Source: Antedon bifida
Lineage: Eukaryota; Echinodermata; Crinoidea; Comatulida; Antedonidae
Reading direction: 5' to 3'
DNA length: 64,000 nucleotides
NCBI GenBank assembly: GCA_963402885.1
Contig: OY727093.1
Span: 11,543,501-11,607,500, forward strand
The position numbers and the translations under genes were made by a program. A model generated the notes under the pieces. That model saw nothing but the letters and a program-made list of their open reading frames with translations, was not told the DNA's origin and did not search any database. Numbering within the stretch: the stretch's first letter is position 1; each line of letters starts with the position of its first letter. Below are positions 10,824 through 60,556 of the stretch, piece by piece.

Positions 10824-12131
10824 TTATCCGTTAGCCCTGTTATGGTCTTGCATGCCGGCAAACAATGAACCTGTAATAAGAACAGAATCAATGTATTCAC
10901 TTGGCAGTCCAGTATGTTACAGATACATTTTTCTACAAGAAATTCAATCTATTATCACAAATCACCAACTCCATGCCACTCAGGTTGCTAAACAGGGCTA
11001 TTTTATGCAGAACCTCTATTAAGGAGACTTCGGGACTAAAAAAAAAATGCTCCTTTAATGAGGAATGTCCCCTGAATTGTGGTTGGTCGTGTTAGTGTTT
11101 TGTGAAATAACAACCATAAAGTGTCCCTTTTCTCCTTAATAGAGGTGTTTAAAAGAGAGGTTCTTTATGATGGTTAAAATCAATGAAACAAAATTATTGA
11201 GTCCGTGATGATTGCCTAAATCTATATCTCAGTCATATGAACAACTTACTTCCATGTGACTCAATACAGATATAAAATCCATCTTCGGAAATACATGGGT
11301 GATGCCCACATGGGTCGCCCTCACATGGATCTCCTATGAAAAAAAAGTTGGCATCAATGAAGCTAGAACTATCGAAAAAATATCAACGTTATATAAGAAT
11401 ACGACAATTTGTGTTTCCTGTCATTGATAGGGGACTATTGATGGTGGCTATATTATTATATAGACCTATTCATTACCATTGTAACGACTTACTTCGCATA
11501 ATCGATTTACATCCAATACTATTATATATGAACATACATTCTGTGCCACTAAATGCCAAACACTTGTCCCCTTCATCACATGGATTGACTAATAAGAATA
11601 AAAACATAGATACAAATCATAATAACAGAACTTTTATTATCAAGATAATAAAAGATATGATTAATGCTGGTCCATCCTTTATTAGGCCCCTACATGATTA
11701 GCGAAAAGCAAGGTTTGCTCCCATCAAGGTCGAAAAAGAAAAATTGACGTAGTGCGTCGACGGCCGTGGATGGGTTACACAATATGACAACACGATTAAT
11801 CATTGTAAAAACTTACTACATTTAACTTTTCCGTCTTCCACATGTACCGTAATCACATGGATTGGCTAGCGATACAAAGGTAACATTTTAAATGTGAAAT
11901 ATTAATCGATCCAACTACAAATTAATATTATTATTATTATTAATATACTAAACAGTAGTTGGACCAGGTAGGCCAAATACTTATATAGGTATAATAATAT
12001 CAGTAAAATCAGCTTTTGGTAGGTTTTGTCTAAATTGCCAGAATACGATTTAACTCTCACTAACCTGCACTAGACAAATCGACGGTTACATACAAAAACA
12101 TGAATATAAGAATAATTGACAATCGAAACAT
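10824..12131 (-). CDS. Gene a: secreted multi-module cysteine peptide, one module frameshifted
   Basis: Coding exons on the minus strand are 12,065-12,131 (leader, 22 residues), 11,817-11,865, 11,493-11,588, 11,250-11,333 and 10,824-10,870 (tail GSLFAGMQDHNRANG, stop). Exon 2 should resemble gene h's NPCDYSAC module, but about 20 bases are missing, so it frameshifts into a TAA. The other modules are intact: NPCDEGDKC..C..C, and DPCEGDPCGHHPC..C, each with four cysteines. All remaining exons are phase 1-1, so skipping exon 2 gives an open 97-residue secreted peptide. Donors are consensus GTAAGT or GTTAGTGAG. The stop overlaps an AATAAA word. A signal peptide and exported product are inferred from the hydrophobic leader. 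Function is unknown. It may be a pseudogene if exon 2 is included. Confidence 0.6.
11010..11165. mobile_element. GTGTCCC-type MITE-like repeat, copy 2
   Basis: The left end is AACCTCTATTAAGGAGACTT and the right end is CCTTAATAGAGGTGTTTAAAAGAGAGGTT, imperfect inverses of each other. Inside are GGAATGTCCCCTGAATTGTG and AAAGTGTCCC. It lies in the last intron of gene a. The 64-residue frame across it is a shadow. Confidence 0.6.
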
Positions 12132-12294
12132 CTTGCAGAAAGAAGTCTATATTAAGAGGAGTAAGTGAAGAAAACCAAATATTTTAAAAGTTAAGAATGA
12201 TGACAATATGGATCACAAATACAACAATATTGAAAACATGGAATAATGTAAAAATGTAAACTGTTAATTAGATCTGAATAGAATGTTTACTCAC

Positions 12295-12380
12295 CTTAAT
12301 CGTTAATACAGGTAATTTGTATCGTTACGCAAGCTCTCCGTAGACTAAAAGGTGTGGACATGTAAACTGGTATTTTATTA
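12295..12380 (-). promoter_or_regulatory. 5' leader exon and TATA-like box of gene a
   Basis: A conserved non-coding exon ends at the donor TTAAG|GTGAGT (exon edge 12,295). Its inner part (AGACTAAAAGGTGTGGACAT on the plus strand) is shared with genes b, e, h, i, m and n. About 75 bp upstream of the donor, minus-strand AATAAAATA (12,371-12,379) is also conserved and could be a TATA box. Start site and exon length are inference. Confidence 0.45.
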
Positions 12381-12539
12381 TCTCATCACGCATAAGTTTA
12401 CATATATTAACACTAACGCTTATAATAGAAATATTAGCAATACAAAAATATAGGCCTACATACATCTGTTTTACAATTTGAATAATAAAACGCTAAATAA
12501 ATTACAAACCAGTTCTTCTTTTTTTTTTATTTATTTTTT

Positions 12540-12688
12540 ATTTAACCTTCTTAACTATAAACAGCATATGCTGACAATAAAAATAAAGTGGTTTAAAAGA
12601 ATGCATGATGAGTAATAAATACAATATACGTCAAATACTTTATTTGTTTATAATAGTTAAAATTATTCCGAAGTAAGTACGTACTTAC
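12540..12688. repeat. CARD2 intron side
   Basis: This is the counterpart of 9,950-10,087 downstream of CARD exon copy 2, with the shared GTTTAAAAGA and AAATATACGTCAAATA words. No exon is visible. Confidence 0.5.
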
Positions 12689-12936
12689 CTGAACAATCTA
12701 CCACGAATTCCGTTAGGATGTGAGGATAATGTGTTTCGAGGGACGAACAATTAACATTTTTTTTTTTTAGAATACCTGTGATTTTTTGCGAAAGTAATCG
12801 CAGGAATATTTCTGTACAATTGATAGTTGTCTTTCCATCCTGTAATTTCAGTCTGTTCAGCTTTCGAAAAAACACCTTGATGTACTAATGAAGGTATTAT
12901 TAGGATACATCAGGCTTTGTGCTTATTTATTAATCT
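12689..12936 (-). pseudogene. CARD-like exon copy 2, 3' part (split by transposon)
   Basis: This is the 3' two-thirds of a second CARD-like exon, with the same donor (GTAAGTACGTACTTCGG context). It has an expanded T run near 12,757-12,768, and a deletion of about 18 bases near 12,910 relative to copy 1. The exon is cut at 12,936 by the 8.8 kb element, and its 5' end resumes at 21,754. The combination of frameshifts, lost start and insertion makes it dead. Confidence 0.85.
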
Positions 12937-13179
12937 CCCAGCAAACACATAACGTTATGACAACATTCGCGAACGTTATAGTTTGGTTTCCGATAATAAC
13001 GTTACAAAAGTACATTGTCACAACGTCATTAAAACGTTACATAATGTGAATAAAATTACGTTAATACAAAAACGTTTTCACAACGTTTTATTTACGTAAT
13101 TGAGAAGCGTTTGATTATTGTTGTATAGTAACGTAACATATTAACGTTTTAATAACGTTTACATGTGACAATTATATTA

Positions 13180-22232: not shown

Positions 22233-23606
22233 TTATCCATTAGCCCTGTTATGGTCTTGCATGCCGGCAAAGAATGTATCTGTAACTAAGAACAGAATCA
22301 ATGTATTTACTTGGCAGTCCATTATGTACAGATAACTATTTCTACAAGAAATTCAATCTATCATCACCAATCACCAACTCCATGCCACTCAGGTTGCTGG
22401 ATTTACCTTTAAAAGCTTATTAGGTTATTTCAGTAGAGCCACTGTTAAGGAGACTTATCTTAGGGACTAAAAAAAACTGCCCCTCTTAATGAGGAATGTC
22501 CCCTGAATTGTGGGGGTTGGTCGTGTTAGTGTTTTGTGACATAACAACCATAAAGTGTCCCCTTTCTCCTAAATAGGGGTGTTCAAAAGAGGGGTTCCAC
22601 TTTATGATGGTTAAAATCACACTTACTTCCACGTGACTCAATACAGATATAAAATCCATCTTCGGAATCACAATGGTGATGCCTACATGGGTCGCCCTCA
22701 CATGGATGTTCTATGAAAAAAAAAGGCGGCATCAATGAAGCTAGAACTATCGAAAAAATATCAACGTTATATAAGAGTGTGACAATTTGTGTCTCCTGTC
22801 ATTGATAGGGGACTATTGATGGTGGCTATATTATTATATAGGCCTATTCATTAACATTATAGCGACTTACCACCATCACTTCGTCGCCTAATCGATTGAC
22901 ATCCAATGCTACTAATACTATCTATGAACAGATATTCTGTGTCACTAAATTCCAAACATTCTTCACATTGATTGACTAATAAGAATAAAAACATAGATAG
23001 ATTAAAATCATAATAACAGAACTTTAATTATCAAGATAATCAAAGATATGATTAATGCTGGTCCATCCTTTTTATAGGCCCCTACATTATTAGCGAAAAG
23101 TAATGTTTGCTCCCATCAAGGTCGAAAAAGAAAATTTGACGTAGTGCGTCGACGGCCGCGGATGGATTACAAAATATGACAACACGATTAGTCATTGTAA
23201 AAACTTACTACATTTAACTTTTCCATCTTCGAACAGACACATGTCATCTCCGCATGCACTGTTATCACATGGATTGGCTAGCGATACAAAGGTAAAATTA
23301 TTATTATTATTTTGATGAAATAAAATAAAAATAAAATAAATAAATAAATAAATAAATAAAGTAACATTTTAAATGTGAAATATTAATCGATCCAAATACA
23401 AATTATTATTATTGTTATTGCTATTGTTGTTGTTATTGTTGTTGTTATTTTTATTGTTGTTGTTATATTTATTGTTGTTGTTATATTTATTGTTGTTATT
23501 ATATTTTTATTGTTATTATCATCATCATGATCATCATCATGATCATCATCATGATCATCATCATGATCATCATGGTCATCATCATCATCATCATCATCAT
23601 CATCAA

Positions 23607-23688
<82 letters not shown>

Positions 23689-24871
23689 TTTAAAAGCTTA
23701 TTAGGCTATTTTATGCGGTAGAGCCACTGTTAAGGAGACTTATCTTCGGGAATAAAACAATCTGCTCCCTTATTGAGGAATGTCCCCTGAATTATGGTTG
23801 ATCGTTTTATTGTTTTGTGACATAACAACCATAAACTGTCCCCTTCTTCCTTATTAGGGGTGTTCAAAAGAGAGGTTCCACTTTAGGATAGTTAAAATCA
23901 ATTAAACAAAAGTATCGAGTCCGTGATGATTGTATAAATCTATATCACAGTCATATGAACAACTTACTTCCAAGTGACTCAATACAGATATAAAATCCAT
24001 CTTCGGAAAGACATCGGTGTTGCCCACATGGGTTGTTCTCACATGGATCTTCTATGAAAAAAAAAAGTCGGCATCAATGAAGCTAGAACTATCGAAAAAA
24101 TATCTATATTATTATATTGTCTCCTGTCATTGATAGGGGACTATTGATGGTGGCTATATTATTATATAGGCCTATTCATTACCATTATAACGACTTACCA
24201 CCATCACTTCGTCGCCTAATCGATTGACATCCAATGCTACTAATACTATATATGAAAATACATTCCGTGTCACTAAATTTCAAACATTTGTCCCCTTCAT
24301 CACATGGATTGACTAATAGAATAAAAACATAGATAAAAATCATAATAACAGAACTTTTATCATCAAGATAATCAAAGATACGATTAATGCTGGTCCATCC
24401 TTTATTAGGCACCTACATGATTGCGAAAAGCAATGTTTGCTCCCATCAAGGTCGAAAAAGAAAAATTGACGTAGTGCGTCGACGGCCGCGGATGGGTTAC
24501 AAAATATGACTGCACGATTAATCATTGTAAAGACTTACTACATTTAACATTTCCATCTTCCTCATCACTGTAATCACATGGATTGGCTAGCGATACAAAG
24601 GTAACATTTTAAATTTGAAATATTAATCGATTTAACTACAAATTAATATTATTATTATTATACCAAACCTTCGGTTTATACAGTAGTTGGAACAGGTAGG
24701 CCAAATACGCATATAGGTATAATAATATTAGTAAATCATCGTGATTAAAGCTCAGCTTTTGGTAGGTTATGTCTAAATTGCCAGATTTAAATGTAACTCT
24801 AACTAACCTGCGCTAGACAACTCGACGGTTACATACAAAAACATGAATAGAATAACTGACAATCGAAACAT
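22233..24871 (-). CDS. Gene b: secreted six-module cysteine protein, fully in frame
   Basis: Eight coding exons join to 615 bases, 204 residues: 24,808-24,871 (leader MFRLSVILFMFLYVTVE..), 24,539-24,586, 24,199-24,312, 23,968-24,051, 23,209-23,277, 22,871-22,975, 22,627-22,710, 22,233-22,279 (tail ending HNRANG, stop overlapping AATAAA). All internal boundaries are phase 1. Modules are NPCDYS (shortened, two Cys), NPCDEGDKC (four), EDPCENNPC (four), NPCDNSAC (four), NQCEEC (three) and EHPCEGDPC (four). Modules 4-6 repeat the order of 1-3, so a three-exon cassette was duplicated inside the gene. The intron between the cassettes carries a large ATC microsatellite. The four-Cys modules match C1-C4 of EGF spacing. 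It is likely exported, with unknown function. It is the longest intact member of the family here. Confidence 0.7.
22430..22612. mobile_element. GTGTCCC-type MITE-like repeat, copy 3
   Basis: This copy lies in the last intron of gene b. It contains GAGGAATGTCCCCTGAATTG and ATAAAGTGTCCCCTTTCTCC, with the right end GTTCAAAAGAGGGGTTCCAC. It has no coding capacity. Confidence 0.55.
23310..23362. repeat. (AAAT)n microsatellite in gene b intron
   Basis: A run of AAAT and AAATAAAAT units lies just upstream (minus strand) of the NPCDNSAC module exon. Confidence 0.8.
23401..23690. repeat. TTG/TTA then ATC microsatellite
   Basis: A TTGTTG/TTATTG-type repeat (to about 23,515) changes into ATC units, first as ATGATCATCATC four-triplet groups, then as a long uninterrupted ATC run to 23,688. 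It lies in the gene b intron separating the two module cassettes. The frames across it are simple-sequence artefacts. Confidence 0.95.
23712..23885. mobile_element. GTGTCCC-type MITE-like repeat, copy 4
   Basis: This copy directly follows the microsatellite and is preceded by TTTAAAAGCTTATTAGGCTA, as is the copy near 22,400. That fits the cassette duplication having carried the element with it. Confidence 0.55.
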
Positions 24872-25800: not shown

Positions 25801-25811
25801 CAACGACTTAC

Positions 25812-26092
25812 ATGTAACATACTTCTGACGTCTCACATGTATTGGAATGGGGAGGACATCGCACTGTATTTAGTAATACAAATATACCACGTTTGTAACT
25901 TGTCTTCTGTCAGTAATTGTGATTATTATACTAATTGATTAGTAATTAACAGAATATGAAAAGTTGAAAACTCTTTAATACCTGTAAACACAGCATTTTT
26001 AAAGAAATTACGATATTCTTACCTGCTGCGCCAGAAAATTCGACGTTTTCATACAAAAACATGAATATTAGAATAGTTGACAATCGAAACAT
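25812..26092 (-). pseudogene. Gene c: B-leader peptide gene, truncated
   Basis: The leader exon (26,023-26,092, MFRLSTILIFMFLYENVE..) is open and ends at a consensus donor. The cysteine exon (25,812-25,863) keeps the first half of the HSNTCETSEVC module, but a deletion leaves only 52 bases and a phase-2 end. The B-type tail exon is missing. The inversion next door also removed the B-type 5' leader exon. Compare genes f, j and o for complete members. I consider it dead. Confidence 0.75.
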
Positions 26093-26657: not shown

Positions 26658-27010
26658 ATGTTTCGATTGTCAATTATTCCATTCATGTTTTTGTATGTAA
26701 CCGTTGAGTTTTCTAGCGCGAGTTAGTGAGAGACCGATACCTAATTTACTCTAACTTTTCTTTCAAAACCATATTGGAGTGACCATCCAAAGAGTACCGT
26801 AACATATTGAAACGTTAATGTAGTCGTATATCAATATTGTAGTCGTAACCCACGATTAGTCTGCATGAGTAACAGAGAAATAAAGACACACGGGTTTTGA
26901 TATTTCGATATTATGCTTTATTAATGCTGATTTTATCTTTTTTTATTCGTAGCCGATCCATGTGGTGATTCAAATTCATGTTAAGAAATCGAAAAATGTT
27001 ATCCCTATGG
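26658..27010 (+). pseudogene. Gene d: inverted C-type peptide gene, broken
   Basis: Leader exon 26,658-26,721 (MFRLSIIPFMFLYVTVE..) ends at GTTAGTGAG. The module exon begins after TTCGTAG at 26,953 and reads ADPCGDSNSC, then TAA (26,982-26,984) where gene e has AAA. The rest is fused to intron sequence and the donor is lost. The acidic-tail exon is absent. A distal tail exon survives at 30,565-30,644, beyond the LINE. Its 5' leader exon was removed at the inversion joint. Confidence 0.8.
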
Positions 27011-27526
27011 TAAAAAGTTGCCGTTGTCACCATTAACAGGGAACAAAGTTGTCACACATTTACATTTAATATTCGATGGATATTTTTAATGTAAGCTTCT
27101 ACATCGATTGACAGTGGTTTTGTTTTGTTTATTATTTATTTTCCACACACAAAATATATAACATAATATTGGTAATAAACATCATTTAGGTAAAAGAAAA
27201 AACAGACAAACTAGTTAAATGTCTTATAATAAACCAAGTCAAGTATAGTGTGTGTGGATGGAGACCAAAATAAGTTTGAAAACAAACTTTAAGGCATGGT
27301 CACCATTTAAAAAATCAGAGTCACAAAGAACAATATGTGATACAAATGATAATAATAATAAGCACCAAATAAGAAAAATAGAGAAATGCAAAGCAAATGT
27401 AGTCTGGTTTAAGCAATATAGATATAAATAAGTTGAAGGTAGATAATAAATTATCATCCAGGTAATTGGCTATACATGATTAAATTAGAAGAAAAAAAAA
27501 AAAAAAAAAGAAGAAGAACGGGAGAC

Positions 27527-34286: not shown

Positions 34287-35064
34287 TTATGAACTGTCAA
34301 TTCTCGGTGCTTCTTCCGCCTCATAATATGGCACAGGTTCTGGTTCTGTGGTTAAAAAAAAGATGAAATCAACATCAATGAATCTTAGAACTAGATATTA
34401 TCAACGTATGGTAAGTGTGGGACAACTTTGACGACTTACCAATCGGATTACGAATACATTTAACACTTTTACCATAGGGAAAACATGTTTCGTTTTCTTT
34501 ACATGAATTTGAATCATCACATGGATCGGCTACGGATAAAAAAAGATAAAATCAGCATTAATAAAACATAATATTGAAATATCAAAATGTTTGTCTATAT
34601 TTCTCTGTTACTGCATACTAATCATGGGTTACAATTGTAATTACAATGCATCATTGTAAAACGTCGCATTATTTGAGATATACGACTATATTAAAGTTTC
34701 AATACTGTAGGCCTATGTTATTCCATAGATGGTCACTCCAACATGGTTTTAAAAGAAAAGTTAGAGTAAATGTGAAATAAAATTTCATCAATCCAAATGC
34801 AATTGACAAAATATGGGTATTTAGTATAATGAATGGCTACAGAGCCACAAATTGTGATACGTCGTCGACTGTGTATAACATCTTGAGAATGTCATGAAAT
34901 TAGTTGACATTTAGGATAGTGCACATATTCAATTTAAAAAACATTAAAATAGACACTAATATTCATTGGACTATAAGTAGGTATCGGTCTCACTAACCTG
35001 CGCTAGACAACTCGACAGTTACAAACAAAAACATGAATATAAGAATAATTGACAATCGAAACAT
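34287..35064 (-). CDS. Gene e: secreted half-EGF peptide with acidic tail, 71 aa
   Basis: Three coding exons on the minus strand join in phase 1: 34,998-35,064 (leader MFRLSIILIFMFLFVTVE.., 22 residues), 34,440-34,529 (module) and 34,287-34,345 (tail). The module ADPCDDSNSCKENETC..C has spacing C-x5-C-x5-C-x8-C, matching the first four cysteines of EGF domains, with no fifth or sixth. The tail EPEPVPYYEAEEAPRIDSS is acidic and proline-rich. Donors are GTTAGTGAG and GTAAGTC; acceptors are TCCGTAG and ACCACAG. The product is 71 residues, likely secreted, about 49 after leader removal. Role unknown. No AATAAA lies close to the acidic-tail stop. The distal exon at 33,685-33,731 has one. Confidence 0.75.
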
Positions 35065-35871: not shown

Positions 35872-37675
35872 TTATGAACTGTTTCCTAACTTCTTATTCA
35901 CACCGTTATCCGTTAGCTCTGTTAGATTCAATGAATCTGTAATAAAAACAAAACCAGTGTAATACTTTGCGATTGCATTATCATCAACTCAATGACACTG
36001 ATTTTCCTTTAAAAAAATTAAATTACTCACTAAATGTTCTGTAATTACACATAACATTTAGGTTTATAGAGTCTTTAAATTTCTGTTAATGTTTGTAAAT
36101 TTTGAATTGAAACATATTGTTTGTATTAAAATGAAATTAAATATAAAAAAAGTAGCCTATAAACAGCTCATTAACCCCCCCAAAAGTTATCACATTCATA
36201 GGTATATCACTCTTCCCTGGGTATATGAACGATTTTGAGAAGACATTCAAAAACACTAATATACAAAATCAAATGTAAATTTGGTCTAACATATTTACTA
36301 TCACTCGTCACTGGCACAGATACCGCGGGGGAGGTGTACCTCCTACTTTTTTAGATCATTATTAGATGATCCCCCTTAACCCATTCGGCGACAAACGCAC
36401 ACACTTATAACAACCATAGGTTTTTCTTAAAATCCTGGTACAGATCCCCAATAATCAAAACGGATCCGCGCCCTTGTCATCAGTATTCCTTAAATAATAA
36501 ATTGTCTATTTTCTGTCATTGTCGTCATCATCATTGTCACCGTTTCGTCACTGAACTGGTAGCAATTACCGTATCGTAAACAAATTGCAAAGGGACTTGA
36601 ATATCAATGACGTTTTATTCAACTGTGTATTAGCATTACACTAGCGCCGAGTAAATCAGTAAGTGAATGATGTATAGACGTATTGTAATTACGGTTATAT
36701 TACTTACTAATAATTAATAACCAAGGTAAGTGTTTATAGTTATAATGTAGTCATTGTTACACGAAATATATTAATCCCTGACAACAAATTTAAAAATGGA
36801 CATGCAAAAATGTCTCGGGCCATTTATTGTGGTTTCGCAGGGTCGCGGCGATTTCGTCAACCTTAACAATAATCCTCGCCAAGGACTTACCAATATACGT
36901 ACTGGTAACACATACGGCACTTCCATTCAATAACATGTAGCATACTTCCGACGTCTCACATGTATTGGAATGGGAAGGACATCGCACTGTATATAGTAAT
37001 ACAAATATATCAAGGTATCGTTTGTAACTTTGTCTTATATCAGCAATGGTAAATATCAATACCTTAGTATCACATTAATCAGAACGACGACTTGGGACAA
37101 GAAATTCGATTAATCTAAGATAGCCTAATCATTGTAAATATATTCTTAATTGTAGTCGTACATTCAAATTGTCCATCTTTGAACTAACACATGTCATCAT
37201 TCCAACATGGGTCGTAACAAGATTAAATGTGAAATACACTAATTTACATCGATCCAAATACAAATTAACTAAATATTTGTATAATTGGTAAGATTTGACA
37301 AATTTAATTTTCAAGAAAACCTAAAACGACGTTATCAAACCACTTTTTATTTCTATTTTCGACAGACTAATATTAGGCCTAGGCTATATATGCGCTCTAC
37401 GTTTACAAACAATCTCTGGATCCGCCTCTGACGCACTGGTGCACCTTCAGTCAGACCATGTAGGAAAAATAATCTGTAATTTTATTCTGTAACTTTTCTT
37501 GTAATTTTTGCAAATTATCCCAAAATATAAGAAGTTGACAACTCTTTAATACCTGTAGGCCTAAATACAGTCATTTTAAAAGAAATTACGATATGCTTAC
37601 TTATATACATGCGCCAGATAATTCGATGTTTACATGCAAAAACATGAATATTAGAATAGTTGACAATCGAAACAT
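35872..37675 (-). CDS. Gene f: B-leader secreted cysteine peptide, 75 aa
   Basis: Coding exons are 37,609-37,675 (leader MFRLSTILIFMFLHVNIE..), 36,891-36,986 (module) and 35,872-35,936 (tail). The module RCPSHSNTCETSEVC..C has spacing C-x6-C-x5-C-x9-C. The tail DSLNLTELTDNGVNKKLGNS ends in TAA; it reads differently from the tails of j and o because about 13 bases are missing. The total is 228 bases, 75 residues, all phase 1. The leader donor is GCAT|GTATAT, weaker than in j. The nearby GTAAGC would put TAA in frame, so the donor choice is uncertain. An intermediate NPC-type exon near 37,155-37,210 has a stop and no acceptor, and is presumably skipped. A 650-bp insertion (36,235-36,885) separates module and tail. 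Confidence 0.6.
36235..36885. other. Insertion in gene f intron
   Basis: This block is absent from the equivalent introns of genes j and o, where GGGTATATGAACGAC runs straight into GACTTACC. It holds no open frame. One end starts TTTTGAGAAGACATTC and the other ends TCGCCAAG. I see no clear terminal repeats, so its type is unknown. Confidence 0.6.
37155..37215 (-). pseudogene. Degenerate NPC-type module exon in gene f
   Basis: The minus strand reads PCWNDDMC, a stop (TAG), then FKDGQFEC. It is related to the NPCDNSACGDDMC module of gene b with four codons missing. The acceptor AG is lost. The same relic is at about 47,640-47,695 (gene j) and, shorter, at 60,045-60,105 (gene o). Confidence 0.7.
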
Positions 37676-38570: not shown

Positions 38571-38975
38571 CTCATTAAGCATACATTTTAATATATTAAT
38601 ACTAACGGTTATATGTTAGAAAGGTTAGAAAATAAAATATGCATGCATTTGTGTTAACATTTGAATGAATAAAACCTATCGAAAGACAATGAATTTGCAT
38701 AATTGAAAAACGTTACGGTATTGCACTAATAATAAATTACATTAACGTTTCAATATGTCCCATGGAAAAATAAGTTATTTCTCCATTCCAACATGATTTT
38801 GATCAGAAGAAAAGTTAGAGTAGGTCTAAATGATTATTAAGTTCAGTTTTTCGACCGTAAAAAATTACATCCAGCAACCATTTTACTAAATATGCGCAAC
38901 AACTATTATCTGCAGGCTTGTTTGGTACTGACTGTATGGCCTAAATTGATCATTATTATAACAATTAATTATGAA

Positions 38976-39494
38976 CTAACTGTCAGTTATCTTTTCTTCT
39001 TCCGCCTCACGTATTGGCTCAGGTTCTTGTTCTGCGATTAACTAAAACATGAAATCAACATCAATGAATTATCGTAAGTTTGGGACAACTTTGTCCTCTA
39101 TTAATAGTGATAACGATAACTTATCGACCGGAATACGAATACGTTTAGCCTTTTTACCATAGGGATAACATGTTTCGTTTTCTTTACATGAATTTGAATC
39201 AGCACATGGATCAAAAAAGATAAAATCAGCATTAATAAAGCATAATTTCGAAATATCTAAACCCGTGTGTATTTCTCTGTTACTCATGCAGACTAATCGT
39301 GAGTTACGACAACATTATAGATATACGACTACATTAACGTTTCGTTATGTTACGGTACTCCTTGGATGGTAACTCCAACAGGGTTTTGAAAGAAAAGTTA
39401 GATTAACGTAGGTATCGGTCTCTCACTAACCTGCGCTAGACAACTAGACGGTTACACTAAAAAACATGAATAGAATAATTGACAATCGAAGCAT
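38976..39494 (-). pseudogene. Gene g: C-type peptide gene with several lesions
   Basis: The leader exon (39,431-39,494) has ATG but contains an in-frame TAG (GTC TAG where others have GTC GAG). The module (about 39,125-39,205) reads DPCADSNSCKENETC, but its fourth cysteine codon is CGT. The acceptor TAG is deleted, and the donor GT is changed to AT. The tail exon 38,976-39,031 (EQEPEPIREAEEEKITDS) is intact. These independent losses mark a dead gene. Confidence 0.85.
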
Positions 39495-42801: not shown

Positions 42802-44138
42802 TTATGGTCCGGCAAACACTGTAATAAGAACCGAATCAATGTATTCACTTGGCAGTCCATATGCTACAGATAACTCTTTCTACAAGTTTCAATCTATCAT
42901 CCACCAATAAACTCGATGCCACTCAGGTTGCTGAACTTACCTTTAAAAGCTTATTAGACTATTTTATGCAGTCGCCACGGGTAAATAGACTTATCTTTGG
43001 GACTAAAAAACTGCACCCTTAATGAGGAATGTCCCCTGAATTGTTGTTGGTGTTAGTGTTTTGTGACATGACAACCATAAAATGTTCCCTGTCCCTTAAT
43101 GGAGATGTTCCACTTTATGATGGCTAAAATCAATGAAACAAAATTATCGAGTCCGTGATGGTTGCCTAAATCAATATCTCAATCATATGAACAACTTACT
43201 TCCAAGTGCCCGACAGATATAAGATCTAGTAACTTCGTAATAACAACAATAACACATTTGCCCACATGGGTCTTTCTTACATGGAACTCCTATGAAAAAA
43301 AAGTCGGCACAATTAAGCTAGAACTATCCAAAAAATATCAACGTTATAAGAGTGCGACAATCTGTGTCTCCTGTCATTGACGAGGGGACTATTGATGGTG
43401 GCTATATTATTAGATAGGCCTATTCATTACCATTATAACGACTTACCATCAGGCATAATCGATTGACATCGAGTTCTATCATTTATGAACAGACATACTC
43501 CTGAGCCCCCTCTTAATTCAATACAACCGTCCCCATCACATGGATTGTCGACTAATAAGAATAAAACATAGATAAAAATCATAATAACAGAACTTTTATT
43601 AACAAGATAATCAAAGATATGATTAATGCTGGTTCATCCTTTATTAGGCCCCTACATGATTAGCGAAAAGCAATGTTTGCTCCCATCAAGGTCGAAAAAG
43701 AAAAATTGACGTAGTGCGTTTACGGCCGGCCGCGGATGGGTTACAAGATATGACTACACGATTAATCATTGTAAAGACTTACTACATTTAGCTTTTCCAT
43801 CTTCAGACAGACACATGGTACCTCCACATGCACTGTAATCACATGGATTGGCTAGAGATACAAAGGTATAATTTAAAATGTGAAATATTACTTGATCCAA
43901 ATACAAATTAATATTATTATTATTATACCAAACCTTCGGTTTATACAGTAGTTGGACCAGGTAGGCCAAATATATAGGTATAATAATATCAGTAAATCAT
44001 CTTGACTGAAGCTCAGCTTTTGGTAGATTATGTCTAAATTGCCAGAATACGATTTAAATGTAACTCTCACTAACCTGCGCTAGACAACTCGACGGTTACA
44101 TACAAAAACATGAATAGAATAATTGACAATCGAAACAT
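42802..44138 (-). CDS. Gene h: secreted three-module cysteine peptide, 114 aa
   Basis: Five coding exons total 345 bases, all phase 1: 44,075-44,138 (leader MFRLSIILFMFLYVTVE..), 43,783-43,851, 43,447-43,551, 43,200-43,289 and 42,802-42,818 (tail MFAGP, stop). Module 1 is ANPCDYSACGGTMC..C (C-x4-C-x4-C-x8-C). Module 2 is DNPCDGDGC..GVC..C with longer loops. Module 3 is VPCKKDPCGQMCYCC..C, with six cysteines. All donors are GTAAGT or GTTAGT. A polyadenylation word lies near 42,629. The tail is short because about 30 bases present in gene a are gone. It is probably a secreted disulfide-rich peptide of about 93 residues after leader removal. It is the best-preserved multi-module member after gene b. 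Function unknown. Confidence 0.75.
42965..43115. mobile_element. GTGTCCC-type MITE-like repeat, copy 5
   Basis: A degraded copy in gene h's last intron, with GAGGAATGTCCCCTGAATTG and CCTTAATGGAGATGTTCCAC. Confidence 0.5.
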
Positions 44139-45052: not shown

Positions 45053-45794
45053 CTAACGGGCAGTTCTCGGTTCTTCTTCCGCCTCACGTATTGGCTCAGG
45101 TTCTGGTTCTGCGATTAACAAAAAGATGAAATCAACATCAATGAATTTAGAACTAGAATATTCCATTAGCAACATATCGTAAATGTGGAACAACTTTGAC
45201 AACTTACCGACCGGAAAATAAATACATGTAATATATCCAGCGAATGCACATATTCCGTTTTCTTTACATGGATTGGGATGACATGGATCGTCTGCGAATA
45301 AAAAAGATAAAATCAGCATTAATAAAGCATAATATTGAAATATCAAAACTGTGTGTCTTTATATCCTTGTTACTGTAGACTAATCGTGGGTTACAATTGT
45401 AATTAAAATGCATCATAAAACATCGCATTATTCGAGATCTACGACTATAGTAAAGTTTCAATACTGTATGTTATTCCATGGTCACTCCAAAATGGTTTTA
45501 AAAGAAAAGTAAATGTGAAATACAATTTCATCAATCCAAATGCAATTGGCAAAACTTAGGTATTTAGTATAATGAATGGCTACAGAGCCACTAATTGTGA
45601 TACGTCGTCAACTGTGTATAACATCCTGAGAATGTCATGGAATTAGTAGACATTTAGGATAGTGCACATATTAAATTTAAAAAAGATAATAATATTCATT
45701 GGACTAAAATTAGGTATCGGTCTCACTAACCTGCGCTAGACAACTCGACGGTTACATACAAAAACATGAATAGAATAATTGACAATCGAAACAT
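45053..45794 (-). CDS. Gene i: secreted half-EGF peptide with acidic tail, 67 aa
   Basis: Exons 45,731-45,794 (leader), 45,208-45,291 (module) and 45,053-45,108 (tail) join in phase 1 to 204 bases. The module is DDPCHPNPCKENGIC..C, spacing C-x4-C-x5-C-x7-C, which reads like the first half of a standard EGF domain (compare 'PCxNGGxC..GYxC'). The tail is EPEPEPIREAEEEPRTAR. Acceptors are TTCGCAG and AATCGCAG. Upstream, the leader's acceptor region and first codons are repeated five times (45,772-46,200), so correct splicing must pick the last copy. It is secreted by inference, and is the paralogue of gene n. Confidence 0.75.
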
Positions 45795-46995: not shown

Positions 46996-48140
46996 TTATC
47001 CGTTAGCCCTGTTAACGTCGTGTATGTTGCGATTAAATGAATCTGTAATAAAAACAAAACCAGTGAAATACTCTGCGAGTGCATTATCATCAACTCAATG
47101 ACAATTTTCAATTTTCCTTTTTAAAAATTACATTACTCACTAATTGTTATGTAATTACACATAGCATTTAGGTTAATAGAATCTTTCAATTTCTGTTAAT
47201 GTTTGTAAATTTGGAATTGAAACATATTGTTTGTATTAAAATGAAATTAAATATGAAAAAGGTAGCTTATAAACAGCTCATTAACCCAAAAAGTTATCAA
47301 ACTCATAGGTATATCACTCCTCCCTGGGTATATGAACGACGACTTACCAATATACACACTGGTAACAGGTTCACATACGACAATTCCATTCGACATGTAA
47401 CATACTTCCGACGTCTCACATGTATTGGAATGGGGAGGACATGGCTCTGTATTACAAAAATATCAATGTATCGTTTGTAACTTGTCTTCTGTCAGCAATG
47501 GTGAATATTAATGGGGTAAGAGGCCTTAGTATCACATTAATCAGAACGACGACTTGAGACAAGAAATGCATACCAAACTTTAGACGATTAATCTAAGATA
47601 GCCTAATCATTGTAAATAAATTCTTACTTATAGCCGTACATTCAACTTGTCCATCTTTGAACTAACACATGTCATCATTCCAACATGGGTCGTAACAAAG
47701 ATAAGATTAAATGTGAAATACACTAATTTACATCGATCCAAATACAAATTAACTAAATATTTGTATAATTGGTAAGATTTGACAAATTTAATTTTCAAGG
47801 AAACCTAAAACGACGTTATCAAACCACTTTTTATTTGTATTTTCGACAGACTATTATTAGGCCTAGGCTATATATGCGCTCTCCGTTTACAAAAAATCTT
47901 TGGATCCGCCTCTGACGCACTGGTGCACCTTCAGTCAGACCATGGAGGAAAAATAATCTGTAATTGTAATCTGTAACTTATCTTGAAATGTTTGCAAATT
48001 GTCCCTGAATATAAGAAGTTGACAGCTCTTTAATACCTGTAAATCATTTGTAAAGAAATTACGATATGCTTACGTGCGCCAGATAATTCGACGTTTACAT
48101 ACAAAAATATGAATATTAGAATAGTTGACAATCGAAACAT
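46996..48140 (-). CDS. Gene j: B-leader secreted cysteine peptide, 70 aa
   Basis: Exons 48,074-48,140 (leader MFRLSTILIFIFLYVNVE..), 47,348-47,446 (module) and 46,996-47,042 (tail) join in phase 1 to 213 bases. The module QPCPPHSNTCETSEVC..C has spacing C-x6-C-x5-C-x8-C. The tail DSFNRNIHDVNRANG ends in TAA overlapping AATAAA (46,992-46,997 on the plus strand). Donors are GTAAGC and GTAAGT; acceptors are TAATACAG and TTATTACAG. A dead NPC-type exon (47,640-47,695) lies in the first intron. It is probably secreted; the role is unknown. The paralogues are gene o (near identical), gene f, and broken gene c. Confidence 0.75.
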
Positions 48141-49689: not shown

Positions 49690-49992
49690 CTGTAAAACGA
49701 AAAAAATCAGTGTATTAGAGTCTATTTTAATACTTAGATAAAAGCAATGAAGAACAATTTCTTCTGCCTGTCTGACAATTGATTATGGCCTGTGGTTATC
49801 ATAATCATTTCAACCACTGTCAATCGATGTAGAGGCTTACATGTAAAATATCCATTAAATATTAGGTTTACAGTTTTACCGTAAATAATTACATTCACCA
49901 ACCGTTTTACAAAATATTGCGCGACAACTAATTGTCTGGCACTGACTGTATGGCCTAAATTGATTATTATTATAATAATAATTAATTACGAA

Positions 49993-50713
49993 CTAACGGT
50001 CAGTTCTCGGTTTTTCTTCCACCTCATAACATCGCACAGGTTCTGGTTCTGCGATTAACAAAAAGATGAAATCAACATCAATTAATTTAGAACTAGAATA
50101 TTCCATTACCAACGTATCGTAAATGTGGGACAACTTTGCCCCCTGTTAATGGTGACAACGACAACTTACCGACCGGAGTACATGGATTTAAATGACATGG
50201 ATCGTCTACGAATAAAAAAAGATAAAACCAGCATTAATAAAGCATAATATCGAAATATCAAAACTGTGTGTCTTTATATCCCTGTTACTGTAGACTAATC
50301 GTGGGTTACAATTGTAATTAAAATGCATCATAAAACATCGCATTATTCGAGGTCTACGACTATAGTAAAGTTTCAATACTGTATGTTATTCCATGGATGG
50401 TCACTCCAACATGGTTTTAAAAGAAAAGTTAGAGTAAATGTGAAATACTAATTCCATCGATTCAAATGCAATTGACAAAATATGGGTATAGTAATGAATG
50501 GCTACAGAGCCACTAATTGTGATACGTCGTCGACTGTGTATAACATCCTGAGAATGTCATGAAATTAGTTGACAGAATAGTGACACATTTAATTTACACC
50601 AATATTCATTGACTATAGGCCTAAGTAGGTATCGGTAACTCTCACTAACCTGCGCTAGACAACTCGACGGTTACATACAAAAACATGAATTGAATAATTG
50701 ACAATCGAATCAT
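49993..50713 (-). CDS. Gene k: C-type secreted peptide, shortened module, 51 aa
   Basis: Exons 50,650-50,713 (leader MIRLSIIQFMFLYVTVE..), 50,170-50,205 (module) and 49,993-50,048 (tail EPEPVRCYEVEEKPRTDR) join to 156 bases in phase 1. The module is only DDPCHLNPCTPV: the central part with two cysteines is deleted without loss of frame. With the tail's extra cysteine, three remain. The open frame survives, but the disulfide pattern of the family does not. It could be decaying or newly remodelled. Confidence 0.55.
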
Positions 50714-51124: not shown

Positions 51125-52900
51125 ATTATAGGTTGAAGTTTTATCGGTTATCAGTTAAAAATAAATATACATGCATTTGACCTTTCAAAAAAAAAATTAA
51201 AACAAATAACAAAAGACATTGATTGGATACCGGCGGCGGGCAAATAAAAAAAAAACAATTTTTACTAGTTAAAAAAGTTGATTTTCAATTATTTTTGTTG
51301 CCGTTTTGTTTGTTTTGAAATTTGTATTGTTTTTTTTGTTTTCAATCATCATTTGTCTTTTGTGGGTTTGTCCCACTTGTTTATTTCTTCCAAATTAATG
51401 AACATTACAAGAAAATAAATACATAGCAGACAGACGGTAACAATTACTGTATTGCACTGAAGCTTACAATTAATGTTGTTTAATTAAATGATAATATACA
51501 GTGATGTTTCCCTCTGACAATCCTTAACATATGTGAACTATTCGGTTATTTTTTTCCGTTTTTGATTTTTTTTATGTTCTCTTGTAAGTGAATAAGTCAA
51601 ATAAAATCATATTTTACCATACGATACTCCGTCTTTTTAGATTTACAATCTGACATTTCATGTGGTAGCTATAAAAATAAAATTTTGTTTTCAATTACAG
51701 AAACTAATTAATAGTAATCATAGTCTAATTAATAACGATGATGACTTAGATCTTTAATTTTCTGAACGAAGGCTGGTATCCTACTGATAATACCATGGAT
51801 AGGCCATAACCTGTATTATTAATAAATTCTTTATTTAAAATAGCCAATAAAAAAAGTTTACTGAAGTTCACTTTACTTCATTCAGAAAATCATCGCGATA
51901 TCATTCTTCTTTTGGTAAACTTTTGCAGTGTTATGACGTCATGCGTTCAATCGTAATGCACTGAACAAGTGCTCAATTGCCAGTCGACACTGACAGTCGC
52001 CTATCGCACGTAATAGGAATGACGTTATAGGGTAGCAGTCGATTGTCGACGTAAAAATCTAAAAGTCCCTACAAACTTCCGCTAGACAATTCGACGTCGA
52101 TAGTTACATACGAGAACATGAATAGAATAATTGACAATCGAGGGATTGTGCAGAAAGTTTATAAAGATAAGAATATTGACGGCAATAAGGAACACAATAG
52201 GCATATATAAATTGTCTTCTTATGAAAGAAGTTTATTTTTCGTTGAATATGTGAAATAAACTCATCTAGGCCTAAATTTATTTTAAACCAGATCTGAAAT
52301 AAAAATGTACAGTACTTCGTAAATTTTACAACGGATATAAGTTTTTTATCAATTCGAAATTATTATGATGGACTAATAATAATACTAATTTTTGTTCTTT
52401 TATCTATAATTATCTTATATTGATAATTATCTTAATTATCCCTTGACATAGGCCTATCAATGGTTATATTCAAGTCCATTAACATTACAATCATGTATTC
52501 AAACACAGAAATCAATTATAGGTCTACGAAGAAATAAAACAATTTAATTCTATACATATGTATCTATGTATATGATGGTCTTATATTTAAGTAATAAAAA
52601 TGGCAATGCTGTGCGTATCAGTAGCTGGATCTCAATTGAGATACAAATAAAATAAGCAAAACCCTAAATTGTATGTTATAACAGTCAGAATGTACTAAGC
52701 TTGTTGGATTAATTTATTGTTGGTATTTAATGTTTCTATGAGAAATGAAATATCCTCTTTCATCAGATAAAATTATGTTAAATATGTTATAACCAATTAT
52801 GTTTCTGATTAGTTAATTTTGATAATGACAAATGAATGTACCAATACTTTCTATCTACATGGTGTTATAGCATAAGCTAAAATATTAAATTTCACTTCAA
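51125..52900. repeat. Array spacer with copy at 31,000-32,205
   Basis: It shares GGATACCGGCGGCGGGCAAA and the downstream AT-rich spacer with repeat 1. A block from about 51,990 to 52,600, not found at 31.9 kb, carries a decayed leader exon (gene l). Confidence 0.6.
52081..52150 (-). pseudogene. Gene l: leader-exon relic
   Basis: The minus strand resembles the A leader (TTGTCAATTATTCTATTCAT), but ATGTTTCGA has become ATCCCTCGA, removing the start. The donor is altered to GGAAGTTTGT. No module exon follows before 51.1 kb. Confidence 0.7.
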
Positions 52901-54120: not shown

Positions 54121-54129
54121 ACGATTTGG

Positions 54130-55897: not shown

Positions 55898-57236
55898 TTA
55901 TGGTCCGGCAAGCACTGTAATAAGAACCGAATCAATGTATTCACTTGGCAGTCCATATGCTACAGATAACTCTTTCTACAAGTTTCAATCTATCATCCAC
56001 CAATAAACTCCATGCCACTCAGGTTGCTGAACTTACCTTTAAAAGCTTATTAGACTATTTTATGCAGTCACCACGGGTAAATAGACTTATCTTTGGGACT
56101 AAAAAACTGCATCCTTAATGAGGAATGTCCCCTGAATTGTTGTTGGTGTTAGTGTTTTGTGACATGACAACCATAACATGTTCCCTGTCCCTTAATGGAG
56201 ATGTTCCACTTTATGATGGCTAAAATCAATGAAACAAAATTATCGAGTCCGTGATGGTTGCCTAAATCAATATCTCAATCATATGAACAACTTACTTCCA
56301 AGTGCCCGACAAATATAAGATCTAGTAACTTCGTAATAACAACAATAACACATTTGCCCACATGGGTCTTTCTTACATGGAGCTCCTATGAAAAAAAAGT
56401 CGGCACAATTAAGCTAGAACTATCCAAAAAATATCAACGTTATAAGAGTGCGACAATCTGTGTCTCCTGTCATTGACGAGGGGACTATTGATGGTGGCTA
56501 TATTATTAGATAGGCATATTCATTACCATTATAACGACTTACCATCAGGCATAATCGATTGACATCGAGTTCTATCATTTATGAACAGACATACTCTACT
56601 GAGCCCCCTCTTAATTCAATACAACCGTCCCCATCACATGGATTGTCGACTAATAAGAATAAAACATAGATAAAAATCATAATAACAGAACTTTTATTAA
56701 CAAGATAATCAAAGATATGATTAATGCTGGTTCATCCTTTATTAGGCCCCTACATGATTAGCGAAAAGCAATGTTTGCTCCCATCAAGGTCGAAAAAGAA
56801 AAATTGACGTAGTGCGTTTACGGCCGGCCGCGGATGGGTTACAAGATATGACTACACGATTAATCATTGTAAAGACTTACTACATTTAGCTTTTCCATCT
56901 TCAGACAGACACACGGTACCTCCACATGCACTGTAATCACATGGATTGGCTAGAGATACAAAGGTATAATTTAAAATGTGAAATATTACTTGATCCAAAT
57001 ACAAATTAATATTATTATTATTATACCAAACCTTCGGTTTATACAGTAGTTGGACCAGGTAGGCCAAATATATAGGTATAATAATATCAGTAAATCATCT
57101 TGACTGAAGCTCAGCTTTTGGTAGATTATGTCTAAATTGCCAGAATACGATTTAAATGTAACTCTCACTAACCTGCGCTAGACAACTCGACGGTTACATA
57201 CAAAAACATGAATAGAATAATTGACAATCGAAACAT
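55898..57236 (-). CDS. Gene m: duplicate of gene h, one module frameshifted
   Basis: Exons parallel gene h at an offset of about 13.1 kb: 57,173-57,236 (leader), 56,881-56,949 (ANPCDYSACGGTVC..C), 56,543-56,649, 56,296-56,385 (APCKKDPCGQMCYCC..C) and 55,898-55,914 (MLAGP). Two extra bases in exon 3 (107 against 105, at CTCTACTGAG against CTCCTGAG) bring in a stop. Because all boundaries are phase 1, a transcript skipping exon 3 would still encode a 79-residue peptide. It is either a pseudogene or a two-module variant. Confidence 0.55.
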
Positions 57237-57383: not shown

Positions 57384-57467
57384 CTTAATCGTTAATGCAG
57401 GTAATTTGTATCGTTGTGTAAGCTCTACGTAGACTAAAAGGTGTGGAACATAAACTGGTATTTTATT
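57384..57467 (-). promoter_or_regulatory. 5' leader exon and TATA-like box of gene m
   Basis: GTGAGT donor with exon edge at 57,384, and AATAAAATA at 57,459-57,467. Confidence 0.45.
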
Positions 57468-57546
57468 ATCTCATCACGCATAAGTTTAAATATATTAATA
57501 TTAACTGTTATAATAGAAAGATTAGCAATACATACATGCATCTGTT

Positions 57547-58283
57547 TTACAATGAGAATATTACAGGTTCTGGTTCTGCGATTAACAAAAAGATGAAATC
57601 AACATCAATGAATTTAGAACTAGAATATTCCATTATCAACATATCGTAAATGTGGGACAACTTTGTCCCCTGTTAATGGTGACAACGACAACTTACCGAC
57701 CGGAAAATAAATACATGTAATATTTCCAGCGAATACACACATTCCGTTTTCTTTACATGGATTGGGATGACATGGATCGTCTGCGAATAAAAAAGATAAA
57801 ATCAGCATTAATAAAGCATAATATTGAAATATCAAAACTGTGTGTCTGTATATCCTTGTTACTGTAGACTAATCGTGGGTTACAATTGTAATTAAAATGC
57901 ATCATAAAACATCGCATTATTCGAGATCTACGACTATAGTAAAGTTTCAATACTGTATGTTATTCCATGGTCACTCCAAAATGGTTTTAAAAGAAAAGTA
58001 AATGTGAAATACAATTTCATCAATCCAAATGCAATTGGCAAAACTTAGGTATTTAGTATAATGAATGGCTACAGAGCCACTAATTGTGATACGTCGTCAA
58101 CTGTGTATAACATCCTGAGAATGTCATGGAATTAGTAGACATTTAGGATAGTGCACATATTAAATTTAAAAAAGATAATAATATTCATTGGACTATAATT
58201 AGGTATCGGTCTCACTAACCTGCGCTAGACAACTCGACGGTTACATACAAAAACATGAATAGAATAATTGACAATCGAAACAT
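57547..58283 (-). CDS. Gene n: half-EGF peptide with new short tail, 58 aa
   Basis: Exons 58,220-58,283 (leader), 57,697-57,780 (module DDPCHPNPCKENGMC..C) and 57,547-57,575 (tail EPEPVIFSL, stop) join in phase 1 to 177 bases. The tail differs from gene i's because a deletion of about 625 bp (44,472-45,097 in repeat 3) joined the first codons of the tail to sequence upstream of gene m's promoter, which happens to supply a stop. The same deletion removed the distal tail exon, and leaves gene m's promoter about 80 bp past the stop. Confidence 0.65.
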
Positions 58284-58690
58284 CTTGCAGAAAAAAGTCT
58301 ATATTAAGAGGAGTAAGTGAAGAAAAACAAATATTTTAAAAGTTATGAATAATTGACAATCGAAACATCTTGCAGAAAGAAGTCTATATTAAGAGGAGTA
58401 AGTGAAGAAAAACAAATATTTTAAAAGTTAAGAATAATTGACAATCGAAACATCTTGAAGAAAGAAGTCTATATTAAGAGGAGTAAGTGAAGAAAAAAAA
58501 AATATTTTAAAAGTTATGAATAATTGACAATCGAAACATCTTGCTGAAAAAAGTCTATATTAAGAGGAGTAAGTGAAGAAAACAAATATTTTAAAAGTTA
58601 AAAATAATTGACAACGAAATATCTTGCAGAAAGAAGTCTATATTAAGAGGAGTAAGTGAAGAAAAACAAATATTTTAAAAGTTAAGAACG
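58258..58690. repeat. About 86-bp tandem repeat of the leader exon's 5' edge (gene n)
   Basis: This is the five-copy array homologous to 45,772-46,200, with small private indels (one copy lacks a T in GACAACGAAATATC). It predates the duplication of repeat 3 into repeat 4. Confidence 0.85.
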
Positions 58691-58785
58691 ATGACAATAT
58701 GGATCACAAATACAACAATATTGAAAACATGGAATAATGTAAATATGTAAACTGTTAATTAGATCTGAATAGAATGTTTACTCAC

Positions 58786-58865
58786 CTTAGTCGGTAATTT
58801 GTATCGTTACGCAAGCTCTCCGTAGACTAAAAGGTGTGGACCATGTAAACTGATATTTATTATCT
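58786..58865 (-). promoter_or_regulatory. 5' leader exon and TATA-like box of gene n
   Basis: GTGAGT donor with exon edge at 58,786. An AATAAATA word lies near 58,855, as at gene i. Confidence 0.4.
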
Positions 58866-59475
58866 CATCACGCATAAGTTTAAATATATTAATATTAACT
58901 GTTATAATAGAAATATTAGCAACACATACATGCATCTGTTTTACAATGAGAATAATGAAACGCCAAATAAATTACATCCCGTTCTTTTTATTTCTTTTAT
59001 TTTTTGTTTAATCTTCTTTATAGAGGTTGACTCTAAACAGGATATGCTGACAATCAATTTCTCGATGATGTTTGCGCTTCCCACTTTAATTCGATTGTAG
59101 GTAATTTAAAAAACATATTTTTAAAAACAAGAGTGCCTCTGTAGTACGCAGTTCAAACAATTAAGTTGACTCAGGTTTTCAAGTCGTACCTTGTAATAAT
59201 CGTTTATAATGATAATGATATAGCTAATAGAAATTTAAGAAAGAAAAACCATGACATATAGTTTTGATATTGTTATTTTATTAGATTTATTATATATTAT
59301 TTATATGTCAGTAATTAAAATCAGTGAGTTCTGCTTGAAATCCCGATTTGCTACGGTATTAGTCCCTACTATCCGGGAAATGTGAGTGATGTGCACAACT
59401 TAGTCTATGTAGGCCTACTAAATATCTTAAACTTATGACATATTTCATAACTTCTTATTCACAACGTCTGTTTTA

Positions 59476-60556
59476 TTATCCGTTAGCCCTGTTAACGTCG
59501 TGTATGTTGCGATTAAATGAATCTGTAATAAAAACAAAACCAGTGAAATACTCTGCGAGTGCATTATCATCAACTCAATGACAATTTTCAATTTTCCTTT
59601 TTAAAAATTACATTACTCACTAATTGTTCTGTAATTACACATAGCATTTAGGTTAATAGAATCTTTTAATTTCTGTTAATGTTTGTAAATTTGGAATTGA
59701 AACATATTGTTTGTATTAAAATGAAATTAAATATGAAAATCACTCCTCCCTGGGTATATGAACGACGACTTACCAATATACATACTGGTAACAGGTTCAC
59801 ATACGACAATTCCATTCGACATGTAACATACTTCCGACGTCTCACATGTATTGGAATGGGGAGGACATGGCTCTGTATATAGTAATACAAAAATATCAAT
59901 GTATCGTTTGTAACTTGTCTTCTGTCAGCAATGGTGAATATTAATGGGGTAAGAGGCCTTAGTATCACATTAATCAGAACGACGACTTGGGACAAGAAAT
60001 GCATACCAAACTTTAGACGATTAATCTAAGGAAATAAATTCTTACTTATAGCCGTACATTCAACTTGAACTAACACATGTCATCATTCCAACATGGGTCG
60101 TAACAAAGATAAGATTAAATGTGAAATACACTAATTTACATCGATCCAAATAAAAATTAACTAAATATTTGTATAATTGGTAAGATTTGACAAATTTAAT
60201 TTTCAAGGAAACCTAAAACTACGTTATCAAACCACTTTTTATTTCTATTTTCGACAGACTATTATTGGCCTAGGTAATATATGCGCTCTCCGTTTACAAA
60301 AAATCTCTGGATCCGCCTCTGACGCACTGGTGCACCTTCAGTCAGACCATAGAGGAAAAAATAATCTGTAATATTTGTAATCTGTAACTTATCTTGAAAT
60401 GTTTGCAAATTGTCCCTTATTGCCAGAATATAAAAAGTTGACAACTCTTTAATACCTGTAAATCATTTGTAAAGAAATTACGATATGCTTACGTGCGCCA
60501 GATAATTCGACGTTTACATACAAAAACATTAATATTATAGTTGACAATCGAAACAT
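59476..60556 (-). CDS. Gene o: B-leader secreted cysteine peptide, 69 aa
   Basis: Exons 60,493-60,556 (leader MFRLSTIILMFLYVNVE..), 59,774-59,872 (module QPCPPHSNTCETSEVC..C) and 59,476-59,522 (tail DSFNRNIHDVNRANG) join in phase 1 to 210 bases. It is a close copy of gene j. The leader lost one codon. The NPC-type relic in intron 1 is further shortened, and about 40 bp of the second intron is gone. LINE 2, with the deletion beside it, removed the sequence equivalent to 48,640-52,960, including the B-type 5' leader exon and promoter. It may therefore be unexpressed or use another start. Confidence 0.65.

Follow-up and report, generated by a model that had tools for sequence, protein, structure and literature searches.

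A duplicated cluster of predicted secreted peptide genes in which some cysteine-module exons differ far more than the adjacent introns

Leader exons, module exons and predicted genes

The window analyzed here, a stretch of 64,000 nucleotides taken at its full length (contig OY727093.1, positions 11,543,501 to 11,607,500), carries a cluster of short genes in which a common leader exon, with the apparent character of a signal peptide, precedes small cysteine-rich modules that resemble the first half of an epidermal growth factor (EGF) domain. The main new result is that, when paralogues are compared, some of these module exons have diverged far beyond the adjacent introns, and the similar introns that lie beside each module serve as a built-in yardstick for neutral change. 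The family is known here from predicted gene models and is very probably a real protein-coding family.

The leader exon occurs 15 times between positions 60556 and 10824 (copies a to o), 14 times on the − strand and once on the + strand (26658), and its start in each copy is the first leader coordinate given below. An ATG with an open signal sequence is present in 13 of the 15 leaders, the exceptions being g, which has an in-frame stop, and l, which is without an ATG. There are two leader variants, MFRLSIIL(I)FMFLYVTVELSSA and, in c, f, j, and o, MFRLSTILIFMFLYVNVELSGA. The cluster contains repeats 250 nt to 4.1 kb long that are 76-98% identical, hence the array reflects duplication and not coincidence. 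The blocks 40390-48639 and 53463-61077, which carry h-i-j and m-n-o, respectively, share pieces that are 93-98% identical, and since the identity is so high they could be either a true duplication or haplotypes joined in the assembly, in which case h/m, i/n, and j/o may be pairs of alleles.

Exon edges were set by us from splice signals and the gene models are predictions. Eight predicted genes (b, e, f, h, i, j, n, and o) have GT/AG at every junction and one open frame each, and the introns between the coding exons of predicted genes are all of phase 1. An earlier note on this DNA had described 15 genes with a shared signal sequence and one leader joined to different four-cysteine modules. 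All 15 leader copies are there and the joining is borne out at the exon level by the phase-1 introns and the eight open models, while the number of intact models comes down to eight of 15 (nine if a skips an exon) and the remaining copies are damaged. The common leader is combined with three layouts: type A (open models e, i, and n) has one four-cysteine module (modA) and an acidic tail, type B (h and b) has the modules M1-M2-M3, and type C (f, j, and o) has the variant leader, one module (modC), and a different tail.

All of the following models are on the − strand unless noted. The type A gene e (34287..35064) comprises leader 35064-34998, modA 34529-34440, and acidic tail 34345-34287, with an open frame of 71 amino acids (aa), and gene i (45053..45794) comprises leader 45794-45731, modA 45291-45208, and acidic tail 45108-45053 (67 aa). 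Gene n (57547..58283; 58 aa) is of the same type with a changed tail (leader 58283-58220, modA 57780-57697, tail 57575-57547). A second, tail-like exon resembling that of type C follows the acidic tails of genes i and e (44903-44949 and 33685-33731, both −), where an alternative last exon is possible. The type B gene h (42802..44138) has an open frame of 114 aa assembled from leader 44138-44075, M1 43851-43783, M2 43551-43447, M3 43289-43200, and tail 42818-42802. Gene b (22233..24871), also of type B, places six module exons (24586-24539, 24312-24199, 24051-23968, 23277-23209, 22975-22871, and 22710-22627) between leader 24871-24808 and tail 22279-22233 in an open frame of 204 aa, with two cysteines left in the first module and three in the fifth. 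Its two module sets are separated by a 57-copy ATC microsatellite at 23518-23688, and both of its M2 modules (24199-24312 and 22871-22975, −) end in SIRRRSDG, a basic stretch and possible inter-module processing site. Type C is represented by gene j (46996..48140; leader 48140-48074, modC 47446-47348, tail 47042-46996; 70 aa), gene o (59476..60556; leader 60556-60493, modC 59872-59774, tail 59522-59476; 69 aa), and gene f (35872..37675; leader 37675-37609 with the weak donor GTATAT, modC 36986-36891, tail 35936-35872; 75 aa).

The remaining copies are in various states of damage. The type B gene a (10824..12131; leader 12131-12065, M2 11588-11493, M3 11333-11250, tail 10870-10824) has a frameshifted M1 at 11865 and gives an open frame (97 aa) only if this M1 is skipped, and in the type B gene m (55898..57236; leader 57236-57173, M1 56949-56881, M2 from 56649, M3 56385-56296, tail 55914-55898) a frameshift in M2 leads to a stop in M2. 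Copy c (25810..26092, type C) has its leader at 26092 and a truncated modC at ~25870-25810; the inverted copy d (26658..27017, +) has its leader at 26658 and a modA remnant with a stop; copy g (38970..39494, type A) has a stop in the leader, which starts at 39494, a damaged modA, and a tail; copy k (49990..50713, type A) has a leader starting at 50713, a modA reduced to two cysteines, and a tail; and copy l (52071..52157) is a leader remnant starting at ~52146 for which a module was not found.

Upstream of the leaders of a, b, e, h, i, m, and n, blastn finds seven copies of a further block that we take as a putative 5′ untranslated exon. In gene a it lies at 12288..12382 (−), and the like blocks start at 25101, 35320, 44372, 46376, 57470, and 58864, where the start is the edge of the query and not a mapped start site. 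The block ends in a GTGAG donor where this was read, and TATATTTA is found 24 nt before it in six of the seven copies. Genes i and n are each preceded by roughly five repeats of an 85-bp unit (45772-46210 and 58261-58688) that contains the leader acceptor and the first codons, so that potential decoys for both the acceptor and the start codon stand in series there.

Altogether 25 module copies were counted, 17 of which have at least four cysteines in an open exon; the eight damaged ones are modA of d, g, and k, M1 of a and b, the second M2 of b, M2 of m, and modC of c. The earlier note had given most modules the C1-C4 spacing of EGF (x4-6, x4-5, x7-10) without C5 and C6. This spacing is matched by 12 of the 17 intact modules, a count made up of 10 of 14 that were measured plus M1 of m and modC of o (M3 of m was read separately and does not fit). 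It does not hold for M2 of a, b, and h, with a middle loop of 7-9 that is off the EGF spacing, nor for M3 of h and m, which have six cysteines in a different arrangement. The second part of the claim stands, as none of the eight spliced chains shows an EGF-like C5-C6. An alignment was made of 14 of the 17 intact modules, omitting three near copies (M1 of m, M3 of m, and modC of o) and all eight damaged modules. In it the four cysteines are the only invariant columns, an invariance that is partly by choice because intact modules were picked, and the proline before the first cysteine is nearly invariant. The eight predicted mature chains have net charges of -2 to -22, and those of types A and C are stand-alone chains of 37-53 residues.

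Divergence of module exons, introns and leaders

The acceleration is seen for modA between e and i and between e and n, and for M2 and M3 between the a/b group and h/m. In a count-based comparison over 14 pairs, in which some exon edges are 1-3 nt off, modA differs at 24 of 85 sites between e and i versus 68 of 763 non-coding sites (p = 1.8e-6) and at 23 of 85 between e and n versus 41 of 674 (p = 3e-8). In the a-h pair, differences are found at 30 of 83 sites in M2 (p = 9e-12) and at 20 of 81 in M3 (p = 8e-6), versus 55 of 745 non-coding sites. Pooling three exon comparisons chosen out of the 14 pairs gives 74/249 versus 123/1508, with an odds ratio of 4.8 and p = 1e-18 when sites are treated as independent. 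A poorly aligned non-coding end in e-i (20/64) works against the claim of acceleration. The tail exon of e-i is raised as well (12/59, p = 0.0098).

The same picture is obtained for the three pairs in which exact exon edges were used and the exons were set against the largest difference in any 60-nt intron window aligned over at least 70% of its length. These values are 0.298 for modA versus 0.150 in e-i, 0.344 for M2 and 0.247 for M3 versus 0.226 in h-a, and 0.448 for M2 and 0.222 for M3 versus 0.170 in h-b. In 15-nt bins the rise for M2 and M3 sets in at the splice sites or close to them, and for modA of e-i the step is less sharp and is strongest in the second half of the exon.

The earlier view of a constant leader with variable cores therefore survives for the cores, whose module exons are accelerated, and not for the leader. 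Leaders differ at 10 of 200 sites versus 232 of 2964 non-coding sites when three chosen comparisons (a-b, e-i, and f-j) are pooled, a poorly aligned non-coding end in f-j (21/35) slightly favoring a slow leader, and this difference is not significant (p = 0.17). Because the leader is not significantly slower than the introns, it is the accelerated cores and not a frozen leader that are the striking part, and the apparent constancy of the leader is largely explained by recent duplications.

The nature of the changes points, at a suggestive level, to selection. Among M3 of a, b, and the second set of b there are 7, 6.5, and 10.5 nonsynonymous versus 0, 0.5, and 0.5 synonymous differences, and the corresponding values are 19.7 versus 2.3 for M3 of a-h and 19 versus 4 for modA of e-i. 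Pooled over four comparisons chosen from the 14 pairs, the nonsynonymous difference per site (dN) is 0.273 and the synonymous one (dS) 0.142 (p = 0.034).

An EGF-like hairpin and its alternatives

The Pfam EGF profile (PF00008) matches four of 14 modules, with a best E of 0.0016, versus none of 14 in one shuffled set. The highest bit score noted, 18.6 for the mature chain of n, lies below the gathering cut-off of 21.5, so these chains do not belong to PF00008. That family has six cysteines, and modA, M1, M2, and modC carry C1-C4 only; the C1-C4 spacing and N-terminal hairpin are found in most modules. Since both the cut-off and C5-C6 are lacking, the modules are termed half-EGF-like and are not filed as EGF domains. 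A profile of the modules gave two matches in the PDB, both to Notch1 (E 0.061 and 0.15) and both aligned on C1-C4, versus one match at E 6.2 for one shuffled profile and none for another. The hairpins were modeled with a mean predicted local distance difference test (pLDDT) score of 77 and 78, and the structural matches of the modA model are EGF domains with low scores. For the M2 model no significant structural match was obtained, and the one at rank 2, the activin-FSTL3 entry 3b4v_D (E 1.9), was not used. The EGF link made in the earlier note is thus upheld by several weak, concordant signals absent from the shuffled controls and is weakened by their sub-threshold scores and the poor fit of M2; on balance, the modules probably have a half-EGF fold.

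These features can be accommodated by the following explanation, which we favor with some reserve. The genes would encode one family of hairpin peptides that are secreted, locked by disulfides, and diversified by selection, with a course of evolution similar to that of conotoxins or immune effectors. The sequence itself shows that the leader exon can be spliced across phase-1 introns onto one, three, or six short exons followed by a tail exon, and the signal peptide would be cleaved after SSA or SGA. Each module would fold as the first half of EGF into a hairpin locked by disulfides 1-3 and 2-4, and its surface would bind a changing outside partner, such as a microbe, parasite, predator, prey, or mate, which would explain why many positions are altered and the four cysteines are kept. 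The genes would have multiplied by tandem and segmental duplication and, as phase-1 exons are symmetrical, modules could also be duplicated inside a gene, as in b; type B chains would thereby be multivalent. That the peptides are diversifying binders of an outside partner is slightly favored, and as the chains are acidic a specific binder is to be preferred over a cationic membrane-breaking peptide. The partner may be an immune, defensive, feeding, or reproductive one.

Several observations weigh against this explanation. At p < 0.05 none of nine M1 pairs and neither of two modC pairs shows a raised value, and the same is true of M2 and M3 in comparisons of a, b, and the second module set of b. 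In the near copies i-n the 5′ exon is raised (3/77, p = 0.037) besides modA (3/85, p = 0.047). The test of dN versus dS uses few sites and chosen pairs, and synonymous sites can be raised as well, dS for M2 of b-h being 0.575 versus an intron difference of 0.069. Every EGF match is weak, none that convinces was obtained for the M2 model in the structural search, and seven of the 15 copies are damaged or depend on exon skipping.

The high synonymous change in M2 of b-h, together with a dS of 0.618 between M2 of h and that of the second set of b, means that segment replacement may contribute. It is possible, though on the unlikely side, that the exon-limited change is mainly due to such replacement, by gene conversion or a segment switch from other copies, and the peptides might then still be real. 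Segment switching is described for snake toxins (PMC2711939), and Dn and Ds are reported to be both raised in mature exons of conotoxins (PMC3862624). Most of the differences given above for M3 and for modA of e-i are, however, nonsynonymous. Moreover, the introns on both flanks of M2 and M3 are similar close to the splice sites, so a segment swap would need two nearby breakpoints each time.

A rather improbable alternative is that the modules are two-disulfide hairpins of another fold, such as the boundless beta-hairpin of sea anemones or a defensin-like one, and are EGF-like in cysteine spacing only. The sub-threshold EGF scores and the deviating spacing of M2 would fit this, two-disulfide hairpin families are described in sea anemone venoms (PMC6627431), and one precursor matched Nodulin_late at 3.8e-5, under its cut-off. 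Yet the EGF signal is lost from shuffled modules that keep the same cysteines, and the chains are acidic. When the leader is left out, the Nodulin_late match weakens to 0.57, and the mature chain of e does not give it at all. The late nodulin/nodule-specific cysteine-rich reading (PF07127; 24.4 bits versus a cut-off of 30.4, and 11 bits without the leader) was rejected because the match depends on the leader.

The damaged copies could also mean that this is a decaying duplicated array, expressed little or not at all, in which the open models are recent survivors, and transposon-like open reading frames (ORFs) do sit between the genes. This is quite unlikely, as relaxed constraint alone cannot push exons past the adjacent introns in rate and eight models are open with canonical splice sites. 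Three ORFs on the − strand resemble long interspersed nuclear elements (LINEs; 27530-30332, 61167-62977, and 63520-63999), the part at 27530-29161 matching PF00078 reverse transcriptases and the others being judged by eye. The window is AT-rich (28.8-36.2% G+C per 4 kb) and contains a 180-bp satellite at 13129-14641 (8.4 copies, 94% match, AACGT/ACGTT-rich), other ACGTT-rich tandem repeats at 21208-21684, and 34 copies of TAGGCCTA versus 0.5 expected from base composition. TAGGCCTA is common in echinoderm and hemichordate genomes. Nothing in Rfam matched the window at the gathering threshold.

Phase-1 exons are usual for EGF domains, but it is very unlikely that the modules are fragments of an ordinary larger EGF-repeat protein with its C5-C6 parts in unrecognized exons, as every gene layout closes with a stop-bearing tail exon and a scan for phase 1, a pyrimidine-rich acceptor, and a cysteine-rich frame found no C5-C6 exon between modules and tails.

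The database in which homologues were sought is poorly suited to testing animal genes, and none was found there for the gene i precursor at E ≤ 10 or for an alignment of the eight precursors at E ≤ 1. A control query with the LINE protein of the window found 7,944 relatives, and the 120 listed came from the sources ena, jgi, lgn, and ncbi with no animal named. Hence the lack of homologues is not evidence of novelty. In open-licence PubMed Central no description of such a half-EGF family was found by the words searched. An effector role and an echinoderm origin are tentative inferences. Diversifying selection on secreted hairpin peptides would make these, tentatively and at somewhat less than even odds, undescribed hypervariable peptides from a marine invertebrate that may be an echinoderm; their scaffold would be a half-EGF hairpin sufficient in itself, with some module exons changing at ~3-6 times the intron rate and phase-1 duplication giving binders of one, three, and six modules. 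If expressed, they would clearly exemplify accelerated evolution confined to exons, on an EGF-like scaffold reduced to two disulfides, and would do so within 50 kb of DNA where intact, decayed, and multi-module copies lie next to one another. Two questions thereby become testable, namely whether half of an EGF domain can be a stand-alone folding and binding unit, and which outside partner drives the change of the modules.

Comparison with known systems

By scaffold, the nearest relatives are the EGF-like domain and the follistatin EGF-like module. The EGF-like domain (PF00008, Notch1 EGF) shares with most modules the N-terminal half, C-x4-6-C-x4-5-C-x7-9-C, with its hairpin, and differs in that the modules here are without C5-C6 and fall below the curated cut-off. 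The same type of C1-C4 spacing appears in the sea cucumber protein Sh-EGFl-1 as given in PMC9605497. The follistatin EGF-like module of SPARC (FS-E) is likewise a two-disulfide half-EGF hairpin, paired 1-3 and 2-4, and a synthetic peptide of this module alone is reported to be active and to become inactive when reduced (PMC2895596). By this precedent, an isolated half-EGF module can be active. In contrast to the chains described here, which end in short tails, the follistatin module adjoins a Kazal module in a matrix protein; no Pfam match to Kazal was found in six mature chains, and no follistatin-type family is among the matches listed in the Pfam scans.

By mode of evolution, the nearest systems are the conotoxin superfamilies, which are reported to have a conserved signal exon, a first intron mostly of phase 1, and introns conserved within a superfamily, with the highest Dn and Ds in the mature exon (exon 3) in several superfamilies (PMC3862624). 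A mature exon that outpaces the introns is also encountered here for modA (e-i and e-n), M2, and M3, and not for M1 or modC. Conotoxins have a pro-region before the core and other cysteine frameworks, whereas the genes here have a tail after the core and can have several modules, and the two are compared by layout and not by sequence. Bivalent spider inhibitor cystine knot toxins also have cysteine-rich relatives with one or several domains, and their genes have expanded and domains have been lost, but the duplication described for them took place inside one exon, whereas here each module has its own exon, and the fold differs (PMC13172734).

By layout, SpTransformer (Sp185/333) of sea urchins is also near, as a cluster of small genes with a conserved exon 1 and a highly variable exon 2; as described, it differs in having two exons and repeat mosaics, and the comparison is one of layout alone (PMC8634487). 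The scaffold sets the present family apart from the conotoxins, and the chance is a little under even that it combines a conotoxin-like way of evolving with a half-EGF-like scaffold on which such evolution is not known to us. The SpTransformer genes are, to our knowledge, without cysteine modules.

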